Assembly (NCBI GenBank): GCA_016866215.1 | Contig: VGNE01000013.1 | Location: forward strand, 1-64,000 | From: Chloroflexota bacterium | GTDB taxonomy: Bacteria; Chloroflexota; Anaerolineae; Anaerolineales; Villigracilaceae | Length of the DNA stretch: 64,000 nt | Reading direction: 5' to 3' | Position numbers and translations under genes: made by a program | Notes under the pieces: generated by a model | Databases searched by the model: none | Seen by the model: the letters and a program-made list of their open reading frames with translations, nothing else | What the model was told of the DNA's origin: nothing | Shown here: in pieces, positions 9,874-22,631 of the stretch | Layout of the letters: every line of letters begins with the position of its first letter | How positions within the stretch are numbered: position 1 is the first letter of the stretch

Positions 9874-12800
9874 ATGAGCGTCAAAACACGCGCAGAGCGT
9901 TCAGGATCACAGGATTGGTTTCATATCGCCGCACTGGGGGAACAACTGCGCAGCGAAAATTCTCTCAGCATACAGCGTGACCGAATCGTATCCATGACAG
10001 GCCGCCTCATCGAAGGCGTGGTGGATGTCTGGTTACAGGAGAAATTTTTTCGCCTGCCAGATCGGGAGGACGGTTTCATCTTTCCTGCTCAGCCTACCCT
10101 TGCGGGAATGAAACTGGCATTCAAAGCAGGCAAGCTGATCACTCAAAGCAGGAGCATAAAAAACGCCGCTTCGCGCGGGACCTTTGCCGCGATCCCGCTC
10201 GAAGATCAGGGGATTACCCTCGGCATTCTCCAGATCACCCGCCCCAAGGGACCTAAGTTTTCCACCCCAGAGTTGAATCTGCTTCAAGGTCTCGCCCAGA
10301 TCATTTCTGTCAGTTTGTTCGCTTCACATCGAACCGAGGTCGAACAGTTCCGCCTCAGGCAGCTCACTCTTGTGCGCGAGGTCAGCACGCAGATCGCGAA
10401 TGTGCTCAATCTGGATGAACTCGCCGATCGTGTCACTGAACTAATCCAAAAGACCTTCCATTATTATTATGTTGCCATCTTTACCCTGGACTCAAATTCC
10501 AATGCGTTACGATTCCGCTCGAGCGCTGTTGCGCCGCGCAAAGGAAAGAAGAAGGCTGCCATCGCCCTTGAAGTCGAGATGGGACAGGGGTTGATCGGCG
10601 AGGCCGCGCGTGATGGCAACCAGATCGTGTGTGACGACGTTCAGTCTGATCCACGCTATCGCTTCATAGACAGCCTGCCCGAAACAAAATCAGAAGTTGT
10701 TATTCCCCTAAAGATAAAAGATCGTGTGCTTGGCGTTCTGGATGTGCAAAGCAACCAGAAGAGCGCCTTTCACCCGAACGATCTTCTCATCCTGCACGCG
10801 CTGGCAGATAATATTGCGCGCGCAGTCGAGAGCGCTCATTTATATAGTAATTTACACCGCCGCGCCGACCAGCTTATATTGGTCTCTGAAGTAAGCAAGA
10901 GCGTGACCTCCACCCTCGATCTTTCGCAATTAATGCATGACGCCGCGTCTTTGATCCATGACAAATTTGGGTATCCTCATGTTTCATTGTTCACGGTGCA
11001 TTCCAACCGCCGCTTGATCGTTTACGAGTCCGGCAGTGGAAAACGCAGTAAAAAATTGGAAGGTTTTTCAATTCCTCTCGACGATGCGCTCGGAATCATG
11101 CCCTGGGTGGCAAGAAATGGAAAATCCGTGCTTGCGAATGACGTCTCAAAAGAGGCTCGTTACCTCCATTCGCCCTTGCCGCCCAAAAACACACAATCTG
11201 AATTGTGCGTGCCTTTGATCTTTAATGAGAAGGTGATCGGCCTGCTGGATATTCAATCCGATAAATTGAATGCGTTCACGGAGGATGACCAGGTCATGTT
11301 CGAAGCCGTAGCGGATACAATCGCGGCGGCCATTCGTAATGCGGATCTGTATCACTCTGAACAATGGCGCCGGCAGGTATCCGACAGCCTGCGTGAAGTG
11401 GCGGGCCTGGTCTCTGATAATGTTGGCGTGGATGAAGTGCTGGAGACTATTTTCACGGAATTGGACCGCAACTTGCCGATTGATATTTCGGCAGTTTGGT
11501 TACTGCAGAATGGCGAGCTTTGTTTGTCTGCGGCGCATGGTGTGAACGCAAACCAGCTAGAAAACATCTGTATTGCCAATCCGGATGCGACCTACGCTAT
11601 GGCGGAGGCTTTGATATCCGATGTTCCAATTATTCGGCGCGCCGATCAGCAGATCTGGCCCAGCGGGCTGGCGGCGGGATATGACGGGAATTACTCGTCC
11701 ATTGCCGCGCCTTTGCGTGTCGGCGATCGTCCGTTAGGTGTGCTGACACTCGCGCATCACACCGCTGGACGATACGGTCATGAAGCCCAGGCGATCATCA
11801 CCACATTCGCAAGTTATGCGGCCGTTGCCATAGAAAATGCGCGTTTATATGATTCCGCACAGGAACAAGCCTATGCGTCTGCGGCTTTGTTGCAGGTGGC
11901 GCAGGCTGTAGTAACTCTGAATGATATTGACGAGATACTGGCTTCCATCACCCGTATCATGCCGATCCTTGTGGGTGTCAAACGGGTTGCTTTATATCGC
12001 TGGGACTCAGAGCGCATGTCTTTTTCAGCTTCGCACGAGTACGGTTTTTCAGATCAGGAAGAAGCGCTCATGACCGAAAAGGAATTCAGCGCGGGTATGT
12101 TCCCCTTCCTTGATGCTGTGCGCGAGCAAAACCTTCTGGTTACGCATCCACTTAAACCAAAAGCGATGCCAAAGTCCTGGTTGAGGATCAAGCCTGAGGT
12201 CAACGCGAAGCGGGAAGCGGATGTGCTCAATGCGGAGCGATTGTTGATGGCGCTGCCATTGTCCATCAAGAATATTCTGTTTGGGGTCCTGTTGATCGAA
12301 GAGACGGAAAACGGTCGCCGTTTCCGCTCACGCCGAATTGAGATCATCAACGGTATCGCGCAACAAGCTGCGCTTGCAATTCAGAATGATCTTTTGCAGC
12401 AGGAAATGGTCGTGCGCGAACGCCTCGAGACCGAAGTGCAATTGGCGCGCCAGATCCAACAGACCTTCATTCCGCAAAGTTTGCCTGCCTACCCTGGCTG
12501 GCAATTGGCGGCGCGCTGGCGCACGGCGCGGCAGGTGGGTGGTGACTTTTACGATGTGATCGAACTGCCCAACAAGAAACTGGGTCTCTTCATTGCAGAT
12601 GTGGCGGATAAAGGCATGCCTGCCGCTTTATTCATGGCGCTCACTCGTACGCTCGTGCGCGCCGCGGTAATCGAAACCGATTCGCCCGCTCAGGCATTGC
12701 GCCGTGTGAATGACCTGCTCTTGCCAGATACGCATCAAGGTATGTTTGTCACAGCTGTGTACGGTGTTTTGGATATGGAACGCGCTGAATTTACTTATGT

Positions 12801-13149
12801 GAATGCAGGGCATAACCCGCCGTTTTGGGTGAGAGCCAATGGCATACCTGAAAAACTCACACGTACAGCCGTTGCGCTTGGCGTGCTGGAACAACCGAAT
12901 ATGAAGGAACGCACCATCTCATTTACGCAAGGGGAAACGCTCTTTCTTTATACGGATGGTCTCACGGAAGCTTTTTCGTTTGATGGGGATTTGTTTGGTG
13001 ATACCCGATTGACGGACTCGTTGAAATCTTCCGCCCTGGCGCAAACCGCTGATGAAGTCATCGTTGCAGTGGAGAATCATTTGAACGAATTTATTGGGTC
13101 CATGCCGCTTGGCGATGACCTCACCATGCTTGTGATAAAAATGGTGTGA
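9874..13149 (+). CDS. Multi-GAF SpoIIE-type PP2C phosphatase
   Basis: A 1091-residue cytoplasmic protein with about five tandem GAF-like domains (roughly 20-150, 155-310, 320-480, 500-650, 660-830). A short coiled linker (LETEVQLARQIQQTFIPQSLP) leads to a SpoIIE phosphatase domain. The domain has the metal-binding motifs GGDFYDV (about 888), IADVADKGMPAALFMA, GHNPPFW and LYTDGLTEA, and ends GDDLTMLVIK. The family dephosphorylates STAS antagonists in response to signals read by the sensor domains. The signals here are unknown. It closes the three-gene partner-switching module and has no membrane segment. Confidence 0.9.
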   Translation: MSVKTRAERSGSQDWFHIAALGEQLRSENSLSIQRDRIVSMTGRLIEGVVDVWLQEKFFRLPDREDGFIFPAQPTLAGMKLAFKAGKLITQSRSIKNAASRGTFAAIPLEDQGITLGILQITRPKGPKFSTPELNLLQGLAQIISVSLFASHRTEVEQFRLRQLTLVREVSTQIANVLNLDELADRVTELIQKTFHYYYVAIFTLDSNSNALRFRSSAVAPRKGKKKAAIALEVEMGQGLIGEAARDGNQIVCDDVQSDPRYRFIDSLPETKSEVVIPLKIKDRVLGVLDVQSNQKSAFHPNDLLILHALADNIARAVESAHLYSNLHRRADQLILVSEVSKSVTSTLDLSQLMHDAASLIHDKFGYPHVSLFTVHSNRRLIVYESGSGKRSKKLEGFSIPLDDALGIMPWVARNGKSVLANDVSKEARYLHSPLPPKNTQSELCVPLIFNEKVIGLLDIQSDKLNAFTEDDQVMFEAVADTIAAAIRNADLYHSEQWRRQVSDSLREVAGLVSDNVGVDEVLETIFTELDRNLPIDISAVWLLQNGELCLSAAHGVNANQLENICIANPDATYAMAEALISDVPIIRRADQQIWPSGLAAGYDGNYSSIAAPLRVGDRPLGVLTLAHHTAGRYGHEAQAIITTFASYAAVAIENARLYDSAQEQAYASAALLQVAQAVVTLNDIDEILASITRIMPILVGVKRVALYRWDSERMSFSASHEYGFSDQEEALMTEKEFSAGMFPFLDAVREQNLLVTHPLKPKAMPKSWLRIKPEVNAKREADVLNAERLLMALPLSIKNILFGVLLIEETENGRRFRSRRIEIINGIAQQAALAIQNDLLQQEMVVRERLETEVQLARQIQQTFIPQSLPAYPGWQLAARWRTARQVGGDFYDVIELPNKKLGLFIADVADKGMPAALFMALTRTLVRAAVIETDSPAQALRRVNDLLLPDTHQGMFVTAVYGVLDMERAEFTYVNAGHNPPFWVRANGIPEKLTRTAVALGVLEQPNMKERTISFTQGETLFLYTDGLTEAFSFDGDLFGDTRLTDSLKSSALAQTADEVIVAVENHLNEFIGSMPLGDDLTMLVIKMV

Positions 13150-13191
13150 TGCCTCTCGTCATAATATTTTGAAATGGAGCATGAATTGTCA

Positions 13192-13680
13192 ATGAAAAAA
13201 ATAATCTTTTTGTTTCTTGTTCTGGGGATATTGATTCCTTCCACTTTGGGATTTGCCAAAGGTGAATTTGATTACATTGTGATCAAAGGACCTGGCATTA
13301 CCGGTGATATCAGCGCGACCAACCCCGAGCTGACCCAGGATTTTTTCATCTTTGCAGATTTTTCACAGGGAGAAATTCCGCCTCCCTCCGACCCCGGGCA
13401 GGGTTACCAGATCGTGCGCATGATTGTGAAAGGAAGCAGCGCCGATCCGTTTGATCAACTGCATTATTATCCGTATACAGGTTATGTTTATTATGACGGA
13501 TTGGTGAACGGCTCATCCGAATATGACGGGAAGTGGTATGCGGCTAATCCTGCGGCTGAAGCGCCTTTTCGGGCAGTCCTGGCGGAACGTGCCCGTTTCA
13601 CTTGGATTCCATTTGCGGTGCTGGTTGTGATCATGGCGGGATTTTTTATAGCGTATCGCTCGAAAGCAACGAAAGAATAA
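13192..13680 (+). CDS. Hypothetical exported protein with C-terminal membrane anchor
   Basis: From ATG 13192 (MKKIIFLFLVLGILIPSTLG) the protein has 162 residues with a signal peptide cleavable near LGFAKG. An outer domain rich in Tyr, Gly and Pro follows (YYPYTGYVYYDG), then one membrane helix at about 135-155 with a short basic tail. Starts at 13174 and 13181 lack good ribosome sites or stop early. I do not recognise the domain. It follows the phosphatase by about 40 bases and ends in a strong terminator. Confidence 0.65.
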   Translation: MKKIIFLFLVLGILIPSTLGFAKGEFDYIVIKGPGITGDISATNPELTQDFFIFADFSQGEIPPPSDPGQGYQIVRMIVKGSSADPFDQLHYYPYTGYVYYDGLVNGSSEYDGKWYAANPAAEAPFRAVLAERARFTWIPFAVLVVIMAGFFIAYRSKATKE

Positions 13681-13681
13681 T

Positions 13682-13723
13682 AAAAAGAGCGGAGATTCCT
13701 AAAATGGGTCTTCGCTCTTTTTT
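13682..13723 (+). terminator. Intrinsic terminator
   Basis: AAAAAGAGCGGAGA pairs with TCTTCGCTCTTTTTT around a loop of about 13 bases and is followed by a T run. It closes the partner-switching transcript. The stem is nearly symmetric (A-run and T-run), so it could also act on the opposite strand after 13785. Confidence 0.8.
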
Positions 13724-13784
13724 GTTGATCGCTGACCATAGGCGATAGACCGTTACCGTCTGTGGTCATTCGTCCACCGTCGTT

Positions 13785-15839
13785 TTATCTCAACTCAAAT
13801 ACATCATTTTTCTCATCATAGGCGAGAATCAAAACCTGGCCTTGTTCAAAGTTAACCGTGCCAGAAAAAACAGAACGATATTCATCCGCCACATCTTTGA
13901 TCCAAATTTCAACTTGATGTGTGCCCGATTCGATTTCCAGGAATTCAAGGGCAGAAATGCGTCCATTGCCGCTGATACCGGAAGGCTTATAAGTTTCATC
14001 GAGAATCGTTTCGCTATCCACGATCACGCGCAGGCTGATGGGGAAGTGTTCACCGCCGAAGATTTTTTCCGCGTCTGCGCCTTCGGGCAGGATGACTCCC
14101 TCTGGAATGTTTGCAGACGTGATCTTGCCTTTTGCGTCGAGGGCGATCCGCAAGCCGCTTTCGTTTGCGGCTTGCATCCCAGTGGGAATGTCCAACGGCA
14201 GGGCGAGGGCGAACATGGCCAGCAATATTACTGTCCCAACCAAACCGCTCACAATCGAAGGGCTCAATTTCTGACGGTTATTCACAGGCGGCAAAACAGG
14301 CGCGGACTTGTTGGATTGTGTCTCCATACGCTGCAGGTTATTCAGATAGGATTCAACTGCCCTTGCGTCGCCGGGTGTGGTTTCGAGCCAGTGTAAATCT
14401 TTCGTCACCAATGCCGGCCGCAGCTTCAGGCGATTCAAAATCCAATGCGAGTCTTCGCGGTAAATACCGTCATCGTAGGGATGCGAAAGAATGACGACAT
14501 CGCGCGCGCCCTCGCTGTGCAGGGACTTGATCCATTCGATATTGACTGTGCTTGCCGAAGGAAGAACGACAGTCACAACGCGCGCCGTCTCTCCCCAGGC
14601 TGATACGGTTACAGGAGTTTTTCTTTCGCTGACATTTAATTGGGCAGGCAAACCACCCAAAGCCTCATCTCGATAGCTTGCAAACAAAACAGTGACAGGG
14701 TAGCCTGCTTTCTTTTCACGGTGTAATGCGCCTTTGATCGTATTGTAAGTTTGTTCGCCGTTGTAACCGCCCTTTAAGTCAATCGCATCGGCGGGACATG
14801 CGCCCACGCAAATTCCGCAAGCGGTGCATTGGGCGTTGTTGATGATGGCTAATTTTTGATAGCCGGAGTCATCAGCGCGTTGAACCATGCGGATCGCATC
14901 AAATGGGCATTCGGTGTAGCAGATGGTACAGCCAGTGCATTTTGGGTTGGAAATAACCGCAGGTCCCAGGTCCCGGCTTGGGGCGAGCCAGGGGAGCAGG
15001 AACAAAGTCCCGCCCACGAAAATCGCCAGTCCCCAGAAAATCAAGTTACCCCATGCGTCGAGCAATGGCAGAAAGCCGAGGTAATAGGCGTCCATTGGAA
15101 CCGATTGGACGAGGCGCGATAGATCTGCGGGCGCGGCGGAGGTGACGGGTTTGATGAGCGAGAGCACGATCAGACCGATAGCGGCTTGAATGCTGACCCA
15201 GCGCGGCGACCACCAATGCGCACGTGAGAGGCGCAAACCGTGAATGTAAATGCCGAGGAAGCCGATCAGCGGCAGGAAGACATGCAGGAAAAGGATGATC
15301 ACAAAGTTGGAGAAGGTGCGAGACACAATATTTGCCGCGACATAGGTGAGACCCGATGTGCCGGCAATGGTGTTCATCATGTATTCGGTCATCCATTGTG
15401 CGCGTTCGTCCCAGACCAGCCAGTAGCCCATCGTGCCGACCAGCCAGGTGGTGGCAAGCATGATCCAGCCGCTTGTCCATGCCAGCCAGCGTGACCCCCA
15501 GTAGCGGCCGCTCAATAACATCTTGAGGAAATGCAAAATAATAAGCAATATCATCGCGTCGGAGGCATAGCGATGAACGCTTCGCATGAGCGAGCCAAAC
15601 CAGTGGGAATCGATTTTTTCAACTGTGGCATAGGCCACATCGAGACCGGGGCGATAAATTGCAGTCAGATACACGCCTGTCCCGATCAGCACAAGCAGCA
15701 TAAAGATCGTTAAGGTGCCAAGATGATAAAAGGGGTTGAAATCCGATTTGGTGAGACGGTTGATGAGTCCTTCGAATTTTGTCCAGAGTTTTTCAAAGGT
15801 GTGCAGGGTTTTGCGTTGCGCGTAGGGGTTGTGAGTCAT
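13785..15839 (-). CDS. Cytochrome b/b6 fused to a 2[4Fe-4S] ferredoxin and a MvhD-like domain
   Basis: The protein has 684 residues. Residues 1-290 form a cytochrome b/b6 N-terminal type membrane domain with paired heme ligands His89/His103 and His186/His200 (SVHRY...LHF; LHVF...YIHG). Two further helices follow. Residues about 300-360 carry two [4Fe-4S] motifs (CTGCTICYTECP and CTACGICVGACP). Residues about 370-480 resemble the MvhD/FlpD iron-sulfur or electron-transfer domain (VTVLFASYRDEA). Then come one more helix (about 530) and an outer C-terminal domain. It probably moves electrons between a quinol and a soluble carrier. It is last in the minus-strand respiratory operon. The exact partner is unknown, and the fused architecture is unusual. 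Confidence 0.8.
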   Translation of the reverse strand: MTHNPYAQRKTLHTFEKLWTKFEGLINRLTKSDFNPFYHLGTLTIFMLLVLIGTGVYLTAIYRPGLDVAYATVEKIDSHWFGSLMRSVHRYASDAMILLIILHFLKMLLSGRYWGSRWLAWTSGWIMLATTWLVGTMGYWLVWDERAQWMTEYMMNTIAGTSGLTYVAANIVSRTFSNFVIILFLHVFLPLIGFLGIYIHGLRLSRAHWWSPRWVSIQAAIGLIVLSLIKPVTSAAPADLSRLVQSVPMDAYYLGFLPLLDAWGNLIFWGLAIFVGGTLFLLPWLAPSRDLGPAVISNPKCTGCTICYTECPFDAIRMVQRADDSGYQKLAIINNAQCTACGICVGACPADAIDLKGGYNGEQTYNTIKGALHREKKAGYPVTVLFASYRDEALGGLPAQLNVSERKTPVTVSAWGETARVVTVVLPSASTVNIEWIKSLHSEGARDVVILSHPYDDGIYREDSHWILNRLKLRPALVTKDLHWLETTPGDARAVESYLNNLQRMETQSNKSAPVLPPVNNRQKLSPSIVSGLVGTVILLAMFALALPLDIPTGMQAANESGLRIALDAKGKITSANIPEGVILPEGADAEKIFGGEHFPISLRVIVDSETILDETYKPSGISGNGRISALEFLEIESGTHQVEIWIKDVADEYRSVFSGTVNFEQGQVLILAYDEKNDVFELR

Positions 15840-15870: not shown

Positions 15871-16000
15871 TGGTCGAGTAGTGGCGCTTTCAGCGCCACG
15901 TATCGAGACCACCCATTTCAGGTTTATCTTTAATTTTTTGTTTACTTGTCATTGGTGGTTTCGATACAGGCGAGAAGAACACTCGCCTTACTCAACCACC
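15871..16000. repeat. Inverted pair of REP-like elements (REPIN-like)
   Basis: TGGTCGAGTAG...CGTATCGAGACCACC (15871-15913) faces GGTGGTTTCGATAC...CTACTCAACCACC (15954-16000). The spacer is about 40 bases and ends GTTTACTTGTCATTGG. The same two-element arrangement with a similar spacer end occurs at 18446-18567. The right half supplies the last codons and stop of the copper ATPase. Confidence 0.8.
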
Positions 16001-18426
16001 GAGTCTTCTTCATACAATGATGGAAATTTATTCATCTTCATTGCATTGGTTGTGACGAAGATACTGCTCGCCACCATTGCAAAAGCGGAGAAGACGGGCT
16101 GTAATAAGCCGGCCATGGCAAGCGCGACTCCAATTACGTTATAAATGACTGCCCAGCCCAAATTTTGTTTTACGCGGCGCATGGATTCTCGTGAGAGATC
16201 AATTAGCCAGGGGATCACGCGCAGGTCATCGCGCATCAGCACGATATCAGCCGCACTGCGCGCGACATCCGTTCCGTGATTCATCGCAAGCCCAACCGTG
16301 GCGGCGGCTAGCGCGGGGCCATCATTGATGCCATCCCCGACCATCGCGGCGTTCCCCGCAAGATGTTTCATCTTTTCATCAGGGGTGAGCGCGGCGATGA
16401 CAGGAATGCCCAACGTCTTTTGCCACCTTTCACCCGCGCTGGACTCGTCGCCTGTCAGCACGCCGAGTTCCAATCCACGGGATTGCAATTGATGCACAAC
16501 ATCTTTCGCCTCCTCGCGGATTGTCTCGCCCAGCCCCACAAGCCCCACAACCTGCCCATCCCAGCCGGCATACACGACGAAGTGCCCCGCTTCCTTCCAC
16601 GCCTCGGCCTGCTCCTTGATATTCGTTGACATCTTCAACCCCTCAGCAGACATCAACCGCGCTGAGCCGATGATGATTCGTAATTCGTAATCCGTAATTC
16701 GTAAAGTCCCAACAACGCCAAGCGCGGGGAGGGATTTGAATGATTCGGGTTTGGATAATTTCACGCTTTTTGAATTTACATATTCAACAATGGCTTTTGC
16801 GAGAGGATGCTCGGATTCGTTTTCAATGGAAGCGATGATTTGCAAAAACTCCGACTCTGGAGTTGGGGAGCATCGCTGTGGCGCCGTGGCGACACTTGCT
16901 CCCCGACTGTTAGCCAGCAAGCTGGCTGACTCCAGAAATATGCCATGCACCTTCATCGGCAGTTGAGTCAATGTGCCGGTCTTGTCAAAGAAGACTTTTT
17001 GCACCTTGGCTAATCGTTCCAGCGCGGCCGTGCTTCGCAAAATTGCGCCTGATTCAGCGGCGCGTTCGAGGGAGAGCCATAACGTGAGCGGCGTTGCAAG
17101 TCCCAGCGCACAGGGGCAAGCGATAAGCAAAACGGACAAGGCCACCAGCAAGCCTGTTTCCAAGCCCGAGACATAATTCCAGATCAGGAATGCAATGGTT
17201 GCCAATCCAAGCGCAAGAGGGGTCATCCATGCGGAGAGCTTGTCCACCATTCTTTCCAACGGTGAACGCGCCCACAGGGCTTCATGCAGTAATCTTCCGA
17301 TTTGGCCCGCTGTTGTGGATTCGCCAACAGCCATTGTGATGACCTCAAAACCACCGTCGAGGTTGATCGTCCCAGCTTGGACTTTGTCACCTTCATGATG
17401 GGTGACGGGTTTGGGTTCGCCCGTCAGCAGGGACTCATCCACGTCACCTTCACCGATGGCGATCAATCCGTCCACGGGAAATCTTTCGCCAGGTCGCACA
17501 CGCACGCGCATGCCAGGTCTCAGTTCAGCGACATTGATGGTCCTATCAGATTCGCCTGTGACTACTGTCGCTGTAGAGGGAATCTGTTCCAGCAAGCGCG
17601 CAACGGCTTTGTTGCTCGATTTATGCGCCTGCATTTCAAGCCACCTGCCTATCGAAACCAAAAAGATGAGCATCGTAGCGGTGTCGAAATACAGGCCGCC
17701 GTGTCCCGCGATCAAATTGCGGACGGACAATCCGAAGGCGGAGAATGTACCAATCGTGATGAGTGTGTGAATGTTGGGCTGTCCGCGCAAAAGACTTGCA
17801 AACCCTGCCCGCAAAATTGGCAGGCCAAGTAACAGCAAAACAGGAATACTCGATACCAGCATCATGATCTGGAAGAAATCCACCAGCCATTGTGTTTCAG
17901 GGGAAGCCAGCCCGAGCAGTTCACGCCCGTATATGCCCGCCCCGACGATCATGTCGTGCAGGACCATCACGCCGCTGATCAGCAAACGTGTATAGAAGGA
18001 TTCTTCCTCGTCGCGCGGTTTTTCGTTTGGAAGAGCGGCTCGATAACCGAGCGAACGCACGCGCTTCCTGAGTTTAACGGGATTTGTAAGCGTCTTGTCA
18101 AATGTGAGATTGGCTTGCCCTTGAATGAAACTCACCTCGGCGTTGACGACTCCCTTCGTGCGGCGGAGTTGTTCGCTGACCAGCCAGGCGCAGGAGGAAC
18201 ACCACATGCCGCCGAGGGTGAGGGTGACATTCTCTGCGTTTTCTGCATTTGCCGAGACAGCGGGCGCTGCCGGGCTTTCCGCGAGCAAGGCAGAGACTTC
18301 CCTGCAGGATGGACAGCAGAAGACATCGCCTGCTTTGTTGGTAAGTGGGTGGAGAGTCGTCAGTCCGCAGAGAGAGCAGGCGACGAGGAGGGATTTGGTG
18401 GCGGGGGCAGTGGTGGCGAGGGTCAT
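15988..18426 (-). CDS. Copper-translocating P-type ATPase (FixI/CcoI-like)
   Basis: From ATG 18426 the protein has 812 residues. The frame extends 22 codons further up, but those are encoded by a repeat. The N-terminus has a zinc-ribbon-like CSLCG...CCPSC, then an HMA domain with GGMWCSSCAW, as in FixI. The P1B motifs follow: CPC (LIACPCALGLATPLT), DKTGT, HPLAKA and GDGIND. It would export copper to the outside for assembly of the neighbouring heme-copper and CuA subunits. Two repeats are inserted in frame: 16851-16935 in the nucleotide-binding domain and 16676-16705 (TLRITDYELRI). The last residues (EEDSVVE) and the stop lie in a REP element. Confidence 0.88.
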   Translation of the reverse strand: MTLATTAPATKSLLVACSLCGLTTLHPLTNKAGDVFCCPSCREVSALLAESPAAPAVSANAENAENVTLTLGGMWCSSCAWLVSEQLRRTKGVVNAEVSFIQGQANLTFDKTLTNPVKLRKRVRSLGYRAALPNEKPRDEEESFYTRLLISGVMVLHDMIVGAGIYGRELLGLASPETQWLVDFFQIMMLVSSIPVLLLLGLPILRAGFASLLRGQPNIHTLITIGTFSAFGLSVRNLIAGHGGLYFDTATMLIFLVSIGRWLEMQAHKSSNKAVARLLEQIPSTATVVTGESDRTINVAELRPGMRVRVRPGERFPVDGLIAIGEGDVDESLLTGEPKPVTHHEGDKVQAGTINLDGGFEVITMAVGESTTAGQIGRLLHEALWARSPLERMVDKLSAWMTPLALGLATIAFLIWNYVSGLETGLLVALSVLLIACPCALGLATPLTLWLSLERAAESGAILRSTAALERLAKVQKVFFDKTGTLTQLPMKVHGIFLESASLLANSRGASVATAPQRCSPTPESEFLQIIASIENESEHPLAKAIVEYVNSKSVKLSKPESFKSLPALGVVGTLRITDYELRIIIGSARLMSAEGLKMSTNIKEQAEAWKEAGHFVVYAGWDGQVVGLVGLGETIREEAKDVVHQLQSRGLELGVLTGDESSAGERWQKTLGIPVIAALTPDEKMKHLAGNAAMVGDGINDGPALAAATVGLAMNHGTDVARSAADIVLMRDDLRVIPWLIDLSRESMRRVKQNLGWAVIYNVIGVALAMAGLLQPVFSAFAMVASSIFVTTNAMKMNKFPSLYEEDSVVE
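16676..16705. repeat. AATTCGTAAT microrepeat inside the ATPase gene
   Basis: Three near-copies of TTCGTAAT(TC) are translated in frame as ITDYELRI between two conserved pieces of the nucleotide-binding domain (ALGVVGT...IIGSARLM). Related tracts occur in intergenic positions at about 24690, 54315, 59035 and 61665. Confidence 0.65.
16851..16935. repeat. In-frame palindromic insertion in the ATPase gene
   Basis: A GGGGAGCA...TGCTCCCC hairpin contains GTGGCGCCGTGGCGACAC. The same 18-mer occurs in the intergenic block at about 25970-25987. The 85 bases are translated as about 25 residues (ANSRGASVATAPQRCSPTPE) in a variable loop of the nucleotide-binding domain. Confidence 0.65.
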
Positions 18427-18445
18427 AAATAATTTATCTGTTAAA

Positions 18446-18567
18446 TGGTGGTCAAGTAGCCCCGTGTTCGTCGGGGTGTACGAGACCACCATTCATATAA
18501 TTTCCTGTTTGCTTGTTATTGCTGGTTTCGATACGGGCGAGAAGTGCGCTCGCCCTACTCAACCAGC
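18446..18567. repeat. Second REPIN-like inverted pair
   Basis: TGGTGGTCAAGTAG...GTACGAGACCACC (18446-18490) faces GCTGGTTTCGATAC...CTACTCAACCAGC (18521-18567). The spacer ends GTTTGCTTGTTATTG, matching the spacer end of the pair at 15871-16000. The two pairs flank the copper ATPase gene on both sides. Confidence 0.8.
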
Positions 18568-18579
18568 GGAGTTTTTCTG

Positions 18580-19245
18580 TTACCAAAACATCACAGAACC
18601 AACCATCATATGCTCAACCCAGCCCAACGCGGCAAACCCGCGCATGGCGAATTGGAAGCCGAAGAACATCATCGCGAATGATGCCAGTCCGCGTGACCAG
18701 GCCAGTGAGGTGGATTTCTTCACGAACCATTTGACGGCGAACAGGCTTGGGAGGGTGGCAATGCCGAAGATGAGCATGTTCAATGCGCCTTGCATTGCGT
18801 TGGCAGAAGCCATGGCGGTGACGAGGGCAGTCAGGACCAAACCACAGGGGAGCAGCCCCCAAAGAAGGCCGAGCAGGTAACAGGTCGGGAGCGAAGCGGA
18901 TTTGAATGCGCGCATGGCGCGTCCCCAGCGTTGAATGATTCCGGAGAATAAAAATTCGGGCGAGGGCGTTAATCCTATGAATGCAGATGCCATATAAAAG
19001 GCCATGACTGCAAAAATGATCGAAAGAACAGCCTGGAGTTTTTCAAGCGACCAAAGGGATTGGCCGAAGAAGCCAAAAAGGATTCCAAGAATTGCGTATG
19101 TTGTGACGCGTCCTGCGTGCGCAAGCACCCATGCGAATTTATTTTGAAAGATGGGCTGGCGGTCAAACAGCATAACAACGGCGCTGCACATGCCGACGCA
19201 ATGACTGAAGCTTCCAAGCAGACCGAGCAGCAGCGCTGTGATCAT
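18580..19245 (-). CDS. SafE/TauE-like (UreH-2) membrane protein next to the oxidase genes
   Basis: From ATG 19245 the protein has 221 residues with six predicted helices. It has the motif SFSHCVGMC near the N-terminus and LPTCYLLGLLWGLLPCGLV in the second half, both typical of the small sulfite-exporter-like (SafE/UreH-2) family found beside FixI and cbb3 oxidase genes. It probably helps copper supply or maturation of the respiratory complex. Upstream codons to 19362 overlap the end of subunit I and are not needed. The next gene downstream is the copper ATPase, separated by a REPIN pair. Confidence 0.8.
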   Translation of the reverse strand: MITALLLGLLGSFSHCVGMCSAVVMLFDRQPIFQNKFAWVLAHAGRVTTYAILGILFGFFGQSLWSLEKLQAVLSIIFAVMAFYMASAFIGLTPSPEFLFSGIIQRWGRAMRAFKSASLPTCYLLGLLWGLLPCGLVLTALVTAMASANAMQGALNMLIFGIATLPSLFAVKWFVKKSTSLAWSRGLASFAMMFFGFQFAMRGFAALGWVEHMMVGSVMFW

Positions 19246-19298: not shown

Positions 19299-21032
19299 CT
19301 AACGAATGAACCAGGTACGTCCCAGCAGCCACCAGTTGCTGAGGTAATACACGGCGAACCAAACCAGGAAGGCAAAGACGAGCACGAGCGTGCCTTTGGG
19401 TTGGTTTTTCGGATGTTCCATTTGCTCGTCGGTTAACTTGGTGGATTCAAGCAGGGGATTCTCTTTGCCGCCGACGAGCAGCAGTTGACCTGCTTCCATG
19501 CGCGGACCTGTGAGTATGGAAGCCAGTACGATGGTTATGTACATGATGCCGCCTGTTACTGCGATCAACGCGCCGATACCGAAGATGGCGAGGGTCAGGT
19601 CCACTGTGCCGGGGACGACGCCAGCGAAGGTGATGTCCCAATTGCGGCGGGCAACGCCTTGGAGTCCGCTGGTGATCATGCCCAATGAAACCAGAATCGT
19701 GCCGCCTCCGAATACATATGGCTGCCACTTTGCCCAGCTCTTAAGTTTGAGTTCCTTGCGGAAGATGAGAGGGATGACGTAATACGTGAATGCCATGAAA
19801 GCGGTGGTGGTGCCGCCTACAACTGTTGCGTGAAAGTGACCGGGCAGGCGCAGTGTATTGTGCGCCAGCATGTTGATCTGTTCTGTGCCGATGGTCACGC
19901 CAGTGACGCCGCCGATCCAGCCAAAGATTATCATGGACATGAACAATCCGCTGAAACCAGGTTCGCCCCAGGGCGCGTTGCGAAGCCAGCCAAAGAGTCC
20001 TTTGTTGTGGCCTTTCGCGCGCTGTGCTACTTCAATTGCAGCGGGAATGGAGAAGGCGTGCATCATCGAGCCAAGCACTGCGAGGTACATGGCGTAGGAG
20101 GTATTGACGGCCTTCCATGCAAAGGACAGCCCGGGATCAACCAAAAGGTGATGGGCAGAGCCGAGGTTGATGAAGAACAGGTAAAGGATGAAAGCGAGGC
20201 GCGAGAACTTCTCGTTGATTGGGCGAATACCCGTGGTCATTTGTGCGAGCGCATACCAGATCGCAACCATCGCGGCCAGGTTGACCTGCTGCGCGGGGTG
20301 ACCGAATCCCCAGAAAAAGTTGCGGTAGATGCCGGGGTCATAATTTTGGAGAATACCCAGGGACCACAGGAAGGCAGGCACAATTGCGGCGGCGCCCTGG
20401 AGCAGGGTGTACACCGCCAGGATGGCGGCAGTCATCAAACCGAAGACCACCAGCGGAAGCGAGCCTTCAAATCTTTTTTCGCGCTTGGCCACCGCAATAT
20501 TGATGAAGAATGTGATCACGGTAATCAACGCCCCGACTGCAAACAGAATGTAGCTCAGGTAAAAGAGTGGGTGCGCTTTGAGCGGAACATAGGCTGTAAA
20601 CATTACGGTGGATTGCGGGTCAAACAAGACCACGCCGTTCACCAACAAACCGCCGACAGTCATCATAATGAAACCAAGCCAGGCAAGTTTGGGCGCAGCA
20701 TGACGCGCATTCAGCAAAACAGTCGAGCCGAAATGCAAGCCTGCCATTTCGAAGAAGACGATCCAGGCCACCAGCATATCAATGCCGTGCAGGGTCAACA
20801 GGCGGTAGAACCAGGTTGCATCCAAAAGATGGATGGCCTGCCAGCGTGTCAGCGCGATCAAGAGAGCTGCGGTGCCGCCCAGCAGGAGGGTTACCACCGC
20901 CATGACTGCATTGGCAATGATGAGGCGTTCGGTGTGCATATCCACTTTAAGGGTGGTCACACCACAGACGCGATAATCATCCTTCGCGCCGGCTTTCCAG
21001 GGAGTTGTGGGTGCAAGTGCTGTCATTTTCAT
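19299..21032 (-). CDS. Heme-copper subunit I, B-family, lacking the active-site tyrosine (NO reductase candidate)
   Basis: A 577-residue, about 12-14 helix membrane protein. The six metal-binding histidines are present: His82 (TLHG), His245 (GHPAQQ), His294/295 (SAHHLLVDPG), His399 and His401 (HNTLRLPGHFH). HNT...PGHFH and HH..VDPG point to the ba3-like B family. In oxygen reductases helix VI reads GHPIVY or GHPEVY, and the Tyr cross-links to a CuB histidine. Here it reads GHPAQQ, so the Tyr position is Gln249. Loss of this Tyr is the hallmark of NO-reducing members, such as the eNOR group reported from Chloroflexi and archaea. Assignment to eNOR is inference. The ATG at 21032 has the site TAGGAG. 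Confidence 0.85.
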   Translation of the reverse strand: MKMTALAPTTPWKAGAKDDYRVCGVTTLKVDMHTERLIIANAVMAVVTLLLGGTAALLIALTRWQAIHLLDATWFYRLLTLHGIDMLVAWIVFFEMAGLHFGSTVLLNARHAAPKLAWLGFIMMTVGGLLVNGVVLFDPQSTVMFTAYVPLKAHPLFYLSYILFAVGALITVITFFINIAVAKREKRFEGSLPLVVFGLMTAAILAVYTLLQGAAAIVPAFLWSLGILQNYDPGIYRNFFWGFGHPAQQVNLAAMVAIWYALAQMTTGIRPINEKFSRLAFILYLFFINLGSAHHLLVDPGLSFAWKAVNTSYAMYLAVLGSMMHAFSIPAAIEVAQRAKGHNKGLFGWLRNAPWGEPGFSGLFMSMIIFGWIGGVTGVTIGTEQINMLAHNTLRLPGHFHATVVGGTTTAFMAFTYYVIPLIFRKELKLKSWAKWQPYVFGGGTILVSLGMITSGLQGVARRNWDITFAGVVPGTVDLTLAIFGIGALIAVTGGIMYITIVLASILTGPRMEAGQLLLVGGKENPLLESTKLTDEQMEHPKNQPKGTLVLVFAFLVWFAVYYLSNWWLLGRTWFIR

Positions 21033-21036
21033 TCTC

Positions 21037-21555
21037 CTACTTGACGATTACTTTGCCAACCATGGTATGGTGACCGAGGTTACAAAACTCATTGCAGACG
21101 ATGGTGAACTCGCCCGCGCTGGTCGGGACAATCGTAGCAACATAGTCATAACCAGGAATAACCTGCAGGTTGATGTTCACGGGCTGGAGCGAAAACCCAT
21201 GCTGCAGATCCATTGAAGAAATATGCAGGCGGTAGGTTTGTCCCTTTTCCAATTGCAATATGGGATACCACTGCCAGGTGCTGGCGCGCAGGTACACGTC
21301 ACTGCCGGGTGGGGGAGCCACAACGGGAATTCCGTTTTCATCTCCAACCTGGTATTGGGTAACAAACTCATTCACCTTCGCAGCGAATTGTTCGCGGGTC
21401 ACGCGGTATGTTTCCGTTGGCACGTTTTGCTTCCCGTAGAAGTACCACAAAGGCATCATCACAGTCAGGAACACGCACCACACAAATGCCACTGTGAGCC
21501 ATGTTTTTTCCATGCGGCCCAGCGGCTTCCACCAAAGTTTTTCAGGCGCTAACAT
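21037..21555 (-). CDS. Heme-copper subunit II with CuA site
   Basis: From ATG 21555 the protein has 172 residues. The frame is open 12 codons further up, but the ribosome site AAGAGGAGAA precedes 21555. One N-terminal membrane helix (TWLTVAFVWCVFLTVMMPLW) leads to an outer cupredoxin domain with the CuA ligands: His in DLQHGF and the motif CNEFCNLGHHTM (C-x-E-x-C-x3-H-x2-M). It accepts electrons from a periplasmic-side donor, probably cytochrome c or a blue copper protein, and passes them to subunit I, four bases downstream. The presence of CuA shows an electron input like cytochrome oxidases. Confidence 0.9.
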   Translation of the reverse strand: MLAPEKLWWKPLGRMEKTWLTVAFVWCVFLTVMMPLWYFYGKQNVPTETYRVTREQFAAKVNEFVTQYQVGDENGIPVVAPPPGSDVYLRASTWQWYPILQLEKGQTYRLHISSMDLQHGFSLQPVNINLQVIPGYDYVATIVPTSAGEFTIVCNEFCNLGHHTMVGKVIVK

Positions 21556-21568
21556 TTTTCTTCTCCTC

Positions 21569-21730
21569 TTAATATGGGGCAGGGGGAACATTGATCAGAT
21601 CTATAATTCCCCAAACGTTATAGATCAAAGTACTGATCAACAATGACAGCACGAACAACAACCAAATGTTGTCGAACCACTTTTGCCCTTGCGGCACAGG
21701 CTCATTTTCACGTTCATCATTCTCGGACAT
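21569..21730 (-). CDS. 53-residue single-helix protein, first gene of the heme-copper operon
   Basis: A small ORF from ATG 21730 to TAA 21569 reads MSENDERENEPVPQGQKWFD, then one membrane helix (about 21-42) and a short tail ending NVPPAPY. A strong ribosome site (AAAGGAGAG) precedes it, and the next gene begins 13 bases beyond its stop. Short single-helix subunits are common in ba3/B-type enzymes (subunit IIa-like), so this is probably a small structural subunit. The sequence itself has no diagnostic motif. Confidence 0.75.
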   Translation of the reverse strand: MSENDERENEPVPQGQKWFDNIWLLFVLSLLISTLIYNVWGIIDLINVPPAPY

Positions 21731-21950
21731 GTCACTCTCCTTTTGTAATGTGTCTTATTTCACAAGCATTGTCTGAATTACACCAATGATAGCAAGAAAA
21801 CGCAAAAGCAGGCAGTGACTTTTGTTACATTTCCCGAGATCTGCGTACATCCGTGCTATGGGAATCATTCTTTTCCATGGTTGAATACCTCAATGAGATC
21901 ACGACATTCTGCTGGCTTTGCATCGTGATGATATGCGTGCATCTTATCTC

Positions 21951-22631
21951 CTAAATTTTGATGGAATTCAACCAATCAGGCAATTGACGAAATAACTCGC
22001 GCATGACTGTCTTCGTCCGTTCGTGAAATAACCCAAGATTTCCATAGGCTTCCCCTCCGTCAATGCACACCAGATCAGTGACCCCGCGCAGGATCAACAG
22101 GCGCGTATTATTCTTTTTTGCAACCCATGCAATTGCGCCTGATTCCCAATCTGCGGCGACGGCGTCATATTTTTCGATGAGCATGGGAATATCTTCCGCG
22201 ACAATATCCCGGTCTGCAGAGACGAGAAGTCCGCGCGAGATGGGAGAAGGCAAATTAAGCGGCAGCCAACTCAGGTCGAGGGAAGAGGCGTAATGTTCAA
22301 TGGCTTCAGATGAATCGCCCATTTGCTCGAGGATGTCATAGACCAGAGTGCGCTCAACGAGGATGATCTTCCCTATTTCAATTCGCCCGACAAACCCTCC
22401 GCATGTGCCGAGGTTGGCGAGCAGGTCTGGCTTGAAATGGTCAATCACATATTGAGCGGAAGCCGCCGCAGAAATTTTCCCCCAACCGCCATGAACGAGT
22501 TGAAGGTTGAAAGTTGAAAGTTTCAGGTTGGCATACTCGCCAAAGGGGGATGGTTTGGTTTCAAGATTAGAGTACATTTCCTTGACAACCTGCCACTCGG
22601 CATTGGCTGAAATGATGACGACTATCTTCAA
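21951..22631 (-). CDS. Nucleosidase/phosphorylase of the MTA/SAH nucleosidase family
   Basis: A 226-residue protein with the purine-nucleoside phosphorylase fold. It has LLANLGTCGGFVGRIEIGKIILVE near residue 90-110, AVAADWESGAIAWVAKKN (E-S-G-A in the substrate loop) and LRGVTDLV near the end. It would cleave a methylthioadenosine- or adenosylhomocysteine-like nucleoside. The exact substrate is uncertain because the family is broad. A TTGAAAGTTGAAAGTTT-type microrepeat (about 22499-22525) encodes KLSTFNLQL in the N-terminal half. The start overlaps the stop of the upstream cinA-C gene by four bases. Confidence 0.75.
   Translation of the reverse strand: MKIVVIISANAEWQVVKEMYSNLETKPSPFGEYANLKLSTFNLQLVHGGWGKISAAASAQYVIDHFKPDLLANLGTCGGFVGRIEIGKIILVERTLVYDILEQMGDSSEAIEHYASSLDLSWLPLNLPSPISRGLLVSADRDIVAEDIPMLIEKYDAVAADWESGAIAWVAKKNNTRLLILRGVTDLVCIDGGEAYGNLGLFHERTKTVMRELFRQLPDWLNSIKI

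Follow-up and report, generated by a model that had tools for sequence, protein, structure and literature searches.

Which reaction is carried out by a heme-copper enzyme that has glutamine in place of the active-site tyrosine, and what reduces or matures such an enzyme, are the questions raised by a gene cluster in the 64,000-nucleotide stretch of DNA analyzed here (the window), whose host is an uncultured Anaerolineales-type bacterium. The open reading frame at 19299-21032 on the minus strand encodes a protein of 577 amino acids with a Pfam COX1 match of 218.9 bits (cut-off 34.8). The initial annotation had described it as a heme-copper subunit I with six metal histidines and a GHPAQQ motif in helix VI, and both were found: the motif begins at residue 244 and the histidines are H82, H245, H294, H295, H399 and H401. 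The glutamine that it had assigned to the active-site tyrosine position was also present; more precisely, helix VI carries two adjacent glutamines, Gln248 and Gln249, and the second is at the tyrosine position. In our alignment H245 aligns with the CuB ligand and Q249 with the ba3 active-site tyrosine, so that the H+4 tyrosine expected of a ba3 oxygen reductase is replaced by Gln249. Glutamine at this position defines the subunit I of eNOR in the available text of PMC8756737, and the open reading frame, as judged from its sequence, is the subunit I of this known, little-studied kind, a family already reported from Anaerolineales. The available part of PMC11388526 states that eNOR has been biochemically characterised. 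The gene pair at 19299-21591 (minus strand) very probably encodes an eNOR-type nitric oxide reductase.

By sequence, the nearest solved structures were 7deg, the subunit I of a heme-copper oxidase, and the ba3 oxidases of Thermus (E 5e-43 to 6e-38). Foldseek with an AlphaFold2 model of subunit I (mean pLDDT 77.4) ranked a Thermus ba3 oxidase first, and VIA-align gave Z values of up to 35.6 for aa3-type chains and about 33 for ba3 chains. Since these values lie close together, the fold identifies the heme-copper oxidase superfamily, and the B family is taken from the sequence. The proximity to ba3 structures in both searches is in line with another reading, namely a B-family oxygen reductase that works without tyrosine at H+4 and uses either another tyrosine, such as Tyr284 on helix VII, or none. 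Tyr284 itself also fits this reading, as it was found in 100/100 sequences of the clade and its column holds Phe (15) or Leu (3) in Tyr-type rows. Nonetheless, we consider an oxygen reductase very unlikely, given the position of the remaining tyrosines described below, the linkage of some relatives to nir genes and the presence of a separate Tyr-type A-family oxidase (L001) in the window's genome.

The alignment comprised 123 B-family rows, of which 105 were Gln-type (100 distinct) and 18 Tyr-type. Rows were typed by the residue at 249 and therefore the remaining columns are the independent ones. Gln248, Gln249, Asn251 and His325 were each conserved in 100/100 distinct Gln-type sequences, and the columns of Gln249, Gln248, Asn251 and His325 held Tyr, Val, Trp and Thr, respectively, in 18/18 Tyr-type rows. 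A further clade-specific residue, Glu95, was present in 97/97 Gln-type sequences, with three further rows ending short of that column. The relocated tyrosine of cbb3 oxidases lies on helix VII, six residues ahead of the histidine pair. No tyrosine was found at this position, which is I288 in the window and Ile (98) or Leu (2) in the 100 sequences. Both Tyr284 and Tyr313, invariant in the Gln type (100/100) and absent from the Tyr type, were considered as relocated active-site tyrosines and lie off the cbb3 position. Tyr284 is 10 residues ahead of the histidine pair, about 15 Å along the helix as estimated from ideal helix geometry, a spacing that makes a cross-link to a CuB histidine unlikely. 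Among the other tyrosines kept in more than 90% of Gln-type rows, those at 236, 316, 418 and 563 were biased towards the clade, less strictly.

In three of the 100 distinct sequences the position of His401 is occupied by lysine (HFK for HFH, helix X). These are the two loci on Thermus thermophilus plasmids (L033 and L034) and one from Aquificota (L112), which suggests that some eNORs may use His/Lys ligation of the low-spin heme.

Phylogenetic analysis separated the two types. In a tree of 58 chosen rows, 37 Gln-type rows formed one branch (support 100/99) and 20 Tyr-type rows another (96/91); one locus, L137, was left out by the motif filter, and the root position was not relied on because the outgroup was very long. 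The tree compared the Gln type with the Tyr type and was linked to eNOR, whose biochemically characterised member is that of R. marinus, through the Thermus thermophilus plasmid homologues, which share about 46% identity and fall inside the Gln branch, and through an Ardenticatena-like genome (G088). The outcome that the initial annotation had named against its own proposal, a placement among oxygen reductases with a compensating tyrosine, is thus not what we found: the Gln type has a branch of its own and Ile or Leu at the cbb3 tyrosine position. The eNOR-like group to which it had assigned the protein holds on the diagnostic glutamine, the phylogeny against the Tyr type, subunit II and the nir linkage of some relatives.

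The range given for this group, Chloroflexi and archaea, proved too narrow. The accessible sections of PMC8756737 place eNOR in Anaerolineales, other Chloroflexi, Halobacteria and Proteobacteria and include Thermus and Rhodothermus sequences in the eNOR alignment, and we found relatives in records labelled Verrucomicrobiota, Aquificota, Thermus and others. Among 301 Chloroflexota genomes, 21 (the window's own included) carried a relative of at least 465 bits and at least 45% identity, the next by score reaching 207 bits and 32%. Within this sample, the window's own genus had a relative in 7 of 8 genomes. Record titles of relatives refer to groundwater, sludge and similar MAGs, and eNOR-type subunit I genes are labelled cytochrome c oxidase in public records.

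Membership in another nitric oxide reductase family (sNOR, bNOR/CuANOR, gNOR or nNOR) was also considered. According to the available text of PMC11388526 they share a relationship with B-family enzymes as well, and that of PMC8756737 gives sNOR and gNOR a cupredoxin subunit. Against this, Table A4 of the latter gives N as the diagnostic residue of sNOR and CuANor (bNOR) and D as that of gNOR, versus Q in the window protein, and we regard this alternative as most improbable; it is the published residues that set these three families apart here. For nNOR, no diagnostic residue was found in the accessible portions of the NOR-family literature examined.

Directly upstream of subunit I, on the same strand, the gene at 21037-21591 encodes a cupredoxin with one N-terminal hydrophobic stretch and a complete CuA motif (CNEFCNLGHHTM), in agreement with the CuA subunit that had been placed beside subunit I. 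Matches of this protein to the NCBIfam CoxB/SoxA/NosZ models were all under cut-off and a Pfam search gave no match. To place the gene pair in context we used 84 loci (L033-L116), drawn from the 80 best of 281 hits and from four plasmid loci; a good number are incomplete, and many are close kin. Subunit II was found in 81/84 loci, and the motif C-x3-C-x3-H-x2-M was present in 81/81 of these relatives. No FNR-like or TTG-CAA box was found upstream of subunit II in 21592-21951.

By homology, metal ligation, substrate, chemistry and proton path of subunit I can be outlined as follows. The CuA of subunit II would be reduced by a donor at the outer face and pass the electrons to the low-spin heme b (H82/H401) and then to the heme-CuB centre (H399; H245, H294 and H295), where two NO would be reduced to N2O (2 NO + 2 e- + 2 H+ -> N2O + H2O). 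Gln249 would stand in place of the cross-linked tyrosine, which oxygen reductases use for cleavage of the O-O bond, and the enzyme may have a side activity on O2. Protons would probably enter by a K-type path. Tyr260 and Ser322 were kept in 100/100 sequences and His325, on helix VIII, is at the position of the ba3 threonine and the A-family K-channel lysine (the A-family row L001 has Lys in this column), which makes such a path plausible.

A link to nitric oxide is also suggested by the gene content around some relatives. NirS matches at E 1e-50 or better were found in 10/84 loci (L052, L068, L069, L075, L081, L086, L094, L110, L112 and L115), and in five of these (L068, L069, L081, L086 and L094) the gene precedes subunit II on its strand, with 0.19-0.43 kb between alignment ends. 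Additionally, L109 has a full-length NirK relative 0.61 kb upstream, and L100 a partial NirK match (214 aa, 51%). NirK was also found in two loci outside the 84, L140 and L147. The first of these (G088, 69% identity) has nirK on the strand of subunit II, 0.34 kb ahead of it, repeating the eNOR-NirK operon reported for Ardenticatena maritima in the available text of PMC4653789, and its genome also carries nosZ. Labels of the nir-positive loci comprise Chloroflexota or its subgroups, Thermoanaerobaculia, Gammaproteobacteria, Aquificota, Planctomycetota and Fraserbacteria, with mis-binning of MAGs possible. No nirS or nirK was found at E 1e-50 in 72/84 loci, many of these incomplete, nor in six ba3 loci (L134-L139) searched alike as a small control. 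Matches between E 1e-20 and 1e-50 were not counted as nir. These were NirK-type matches, of 30-34% in L033, L034 and L104, the first two annotated as multicopper oxidases, and to about 100-130 residues of one query in L052, L069, L075, L081, L086 and L094. On the Thermus thermophilus plasmids, Rrf2-family and DUF542 genes come after eNOR. Genes of these two kinds frequently take part in NO sensing and the repair of iron-sulfur clusters. For SURF MAG 42, the available text of PMC8756737 describes eNOR with no other denitrification genes beside it.

At the genome level, NirK over cut-off was found in 12/21 eNOR genomes versus 6/25 relatives without eNOR, NirS above 400 bits in 4/21 versus 3/25, and NosZ over cut-off in 9/21 versus 2/25. 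The presence of either NirK or NirS (13/21 versus 9/25) separated carriers weakly, and all these counts ignore kinship, with the 25 non-carriers all from the window's class and the 21 carriers including other classes. In the window's genome, which is 97% complete, NirS gave no match and the best scores were 86.4 bits for the NirK profile (cut-off 296.3) and 49.6 for NosZ (cut-off 625). These absences, the 72 loci lacking nir matches and the weak separation of carriers count against the eNOR reading. As none of the three is over cut-off there, detoxification or scavenging of NO made elsewhere fits best and would be the most likely role of the enzyme in this host.

Downstream of subunit I, three genes follow on the same strand. 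The first (18580-19245) encodes a DsbD_2/TauE-SafE-like membrane protein (PF13386, 138.1 bits) that probably starts at ATG 19245 and not at TTG 19362; it was found in 58/84 loci and is a probable maturation factor. The second (15988-18492) encodes a P1B-type copper-transporting ATPase (TIGR01525 and TIGR01511 over cut-off), found in 53/84 loci at E 1e-5 and in 51/84 over 200 bits, which probably delivers copper for CuA/CuB. The third (13785-15839) encodes a membrane cytochrome b with two [4Fe-4S] motifs, a degenerate FlpD-like domain and a C-terminal helix and beta domain. Near the cluster lie two genes on the plus strand: one (13174-13680), convergent with the cytochrome b gene, encodes a 168-aa protein with no Pfam match that recurs on the opposite strand in 19/84 eNOR loci, and the other (9874-13149) encodes a 1091-aa multi-GAF SpoIIE-type protein.

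The cytochrome b-[4Fe-4S] protein matched Cytochrome_B and Fer4 in Pfam, and its PDB profile matches were cytochromes b6 and b, polyferredoxins and HdrA. Four histidines (His89, 103, 186 and 200) and the eight cysteines of the two [4Fe-4S] motifs were invariant in 29 sequences, and the histidines would leave room for two b hemes. In the structural model (pLDDT 87.6) the first part matches cytochrome b and a helix at 529-544 is followed by the beta domain. The FlpD-like domain (about 14384-14696) gave no Pfam FlpD match in the window copy; the copy from Defluviimonas scored 33.6 bits (cut-off 22.3). The cysteines of this domain have been lost in the window copy and those nearest to it, and the heme ligands and [4Fe-4S] cysteines are kept.

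One possible function of this neighbour, which we judge slightly below an even chance, is that of an electron-input module, in which electrons from a cytoplasmic iron-sulfur donor or from quinol would reach the CuA side by way of two b hemes; the invariant histidines and cysteines are in line with this function. The distribution of the neighbour fits as well. The gene was found near eNOR in 53/84 loci at E 1e-5 and in 43 of the 51 loci with at least 6.5 kb downstream, and the eight long-flank loci without it, both Thermus loci among them, count against this reading. When at least 150 bits were required of the cytochrome b protein and 200 bits of the ATPase, 53 loci had the former, 44 of them with the ATPase and nine without; these nine, of which seven have at least 6.5 kb downstream, also favour electron input. 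Across the 301 genomes, with at most three candidates scored per genome, 13 full-length-type matches (above 240 bits; next 77.9) occurred in 10 genomes, all among the 21 with eNOR; the other 11 eNOR genomes, which gave no full-length match, count against electron input. The loss of FlpD-domain cysteines, seen in the window's close kin and also in L106 and L114, likewise weakens the electron-input reading. Of the 13 copies, 12 have a B-family subunit I no more than 10 kb away. Three of them directly follow canonical ba3 genes (GHPLVY) and combine an FlpD-type GCxxxDC motif with a C-terminal c-type heme (CRICH) domain (L134 6851-9229, L135 5945-8278 and L136 4982-7366), an arrangement that speaks for electron input. 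In the Gammaproteobacteria-labelled L110, two cytochrome b-[4Fe-4S]-FlpD-type genes stand in tandem downstream of eNOR (11123-12694 and 12855-14441). When plasmids were searched with two versions of the neighbour, the Defluviimonas copy matched over 49-56% of the query, and one of the searches gave three further records with matches over 9-18%.

The thirteenth copy, in G064, adjoins a copper ATPase on a contig apart from that of eNOR, which goes against electron input and fits a second, less likely explanation, in which the neighbour would serve maturation as a CcoG-like cupric reductase joined to a cytochrome b, giving Cu(I) for CuA/CuB. The clustering with the copper ATPase and DsbD_2, and elsewhere with SCO and heme O synthase matches, is also in line with maturation, and the layout of two [4Fe-4S] motifs, helix and C-terminal beta domain recalls CcoG, which the available text of PMC7558416 describes as two [4Fe-4S] clusters plus a periplasmic Ig-like domain. 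However, that text mentions no b-type cytochrome for CcoG, and FixG_C (PF11614) was found neither in the window protein nor at its place in 10 genomes. The ba3-linked copies, moreover, carry cytochrome c, and the adjoining stretches examined gave no ATPase or DsbD_2 match.

We therefore lean towards electron input over copper maturation. A more specific proposal, which we put forward tentatively and with less confidence than electron input in general, is that cytochrome b-[4Fe-4S]2-FlpD proteins are a dedicated electron input for eNOR and some ba3 enzymes, so that a low-potential cytoplasmic donor could drive NO or O2 reduction. If true, a ferredoxin- or Hdr-like donor would act instead of, or besides, the quinol-cytochrome c route. 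In the titles and abstract openings of the literature listed, no link of eNOR with cytochrome b or ferredoxin was found described. The primary biochemical paper on eNOR is reportedly Murali et al. 2024 (PNAS). The eNOR finding as such would not surprise a specialist and gives Anaerolineales-type genomes a well-supported candidate enzyme for N2O formation; it is the cytochrome b neighbour that deserves an experiment. As gene order links this neighbour to the enzyme under several phylum labels, what reduces or matures eNOR becomes directly testable.

Set against the diheme cytochrome b of bc1/b6f complexes, which has a Rieske partner, the neighbour showed a b6-like domain and four histidines. 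It resembles CcoG/FixG and the ccoGHIS cluster in its two [4Fe-4S] motifs, its C-terminal beta domain and the copper ATPase in the cluster, and differs from them by the b6-like cytochrome, the FlpD-type cysteine motifs of many relatives and the missing FixG_C match. The enzyme itself shares with the ba3 oxidases of Thermus and Aquifex its fold, the six metal histidines, a CuA subunit II and the tyrosine and serine of the K-type path, whereas the Gln type replaces the Tyr, Val and Trp of helix VI by Gln, Gln and Asn, respectively, and has His instead of Thr in helix VIII and mostly Glu instead of Ile in helix II. With respect to eNOR, the window's genome is unlike in lacking nir or nosZ over cut-off and the cytochrome b-[4Fe-4S] neighbour is not described in the accessible portions of the eNOR literature, but the protein agrees with this family in the glutamine at the tyrosine position, the adjoining CuA subunit II, its place in a single clade and the nirK or nirS beside some relatives.
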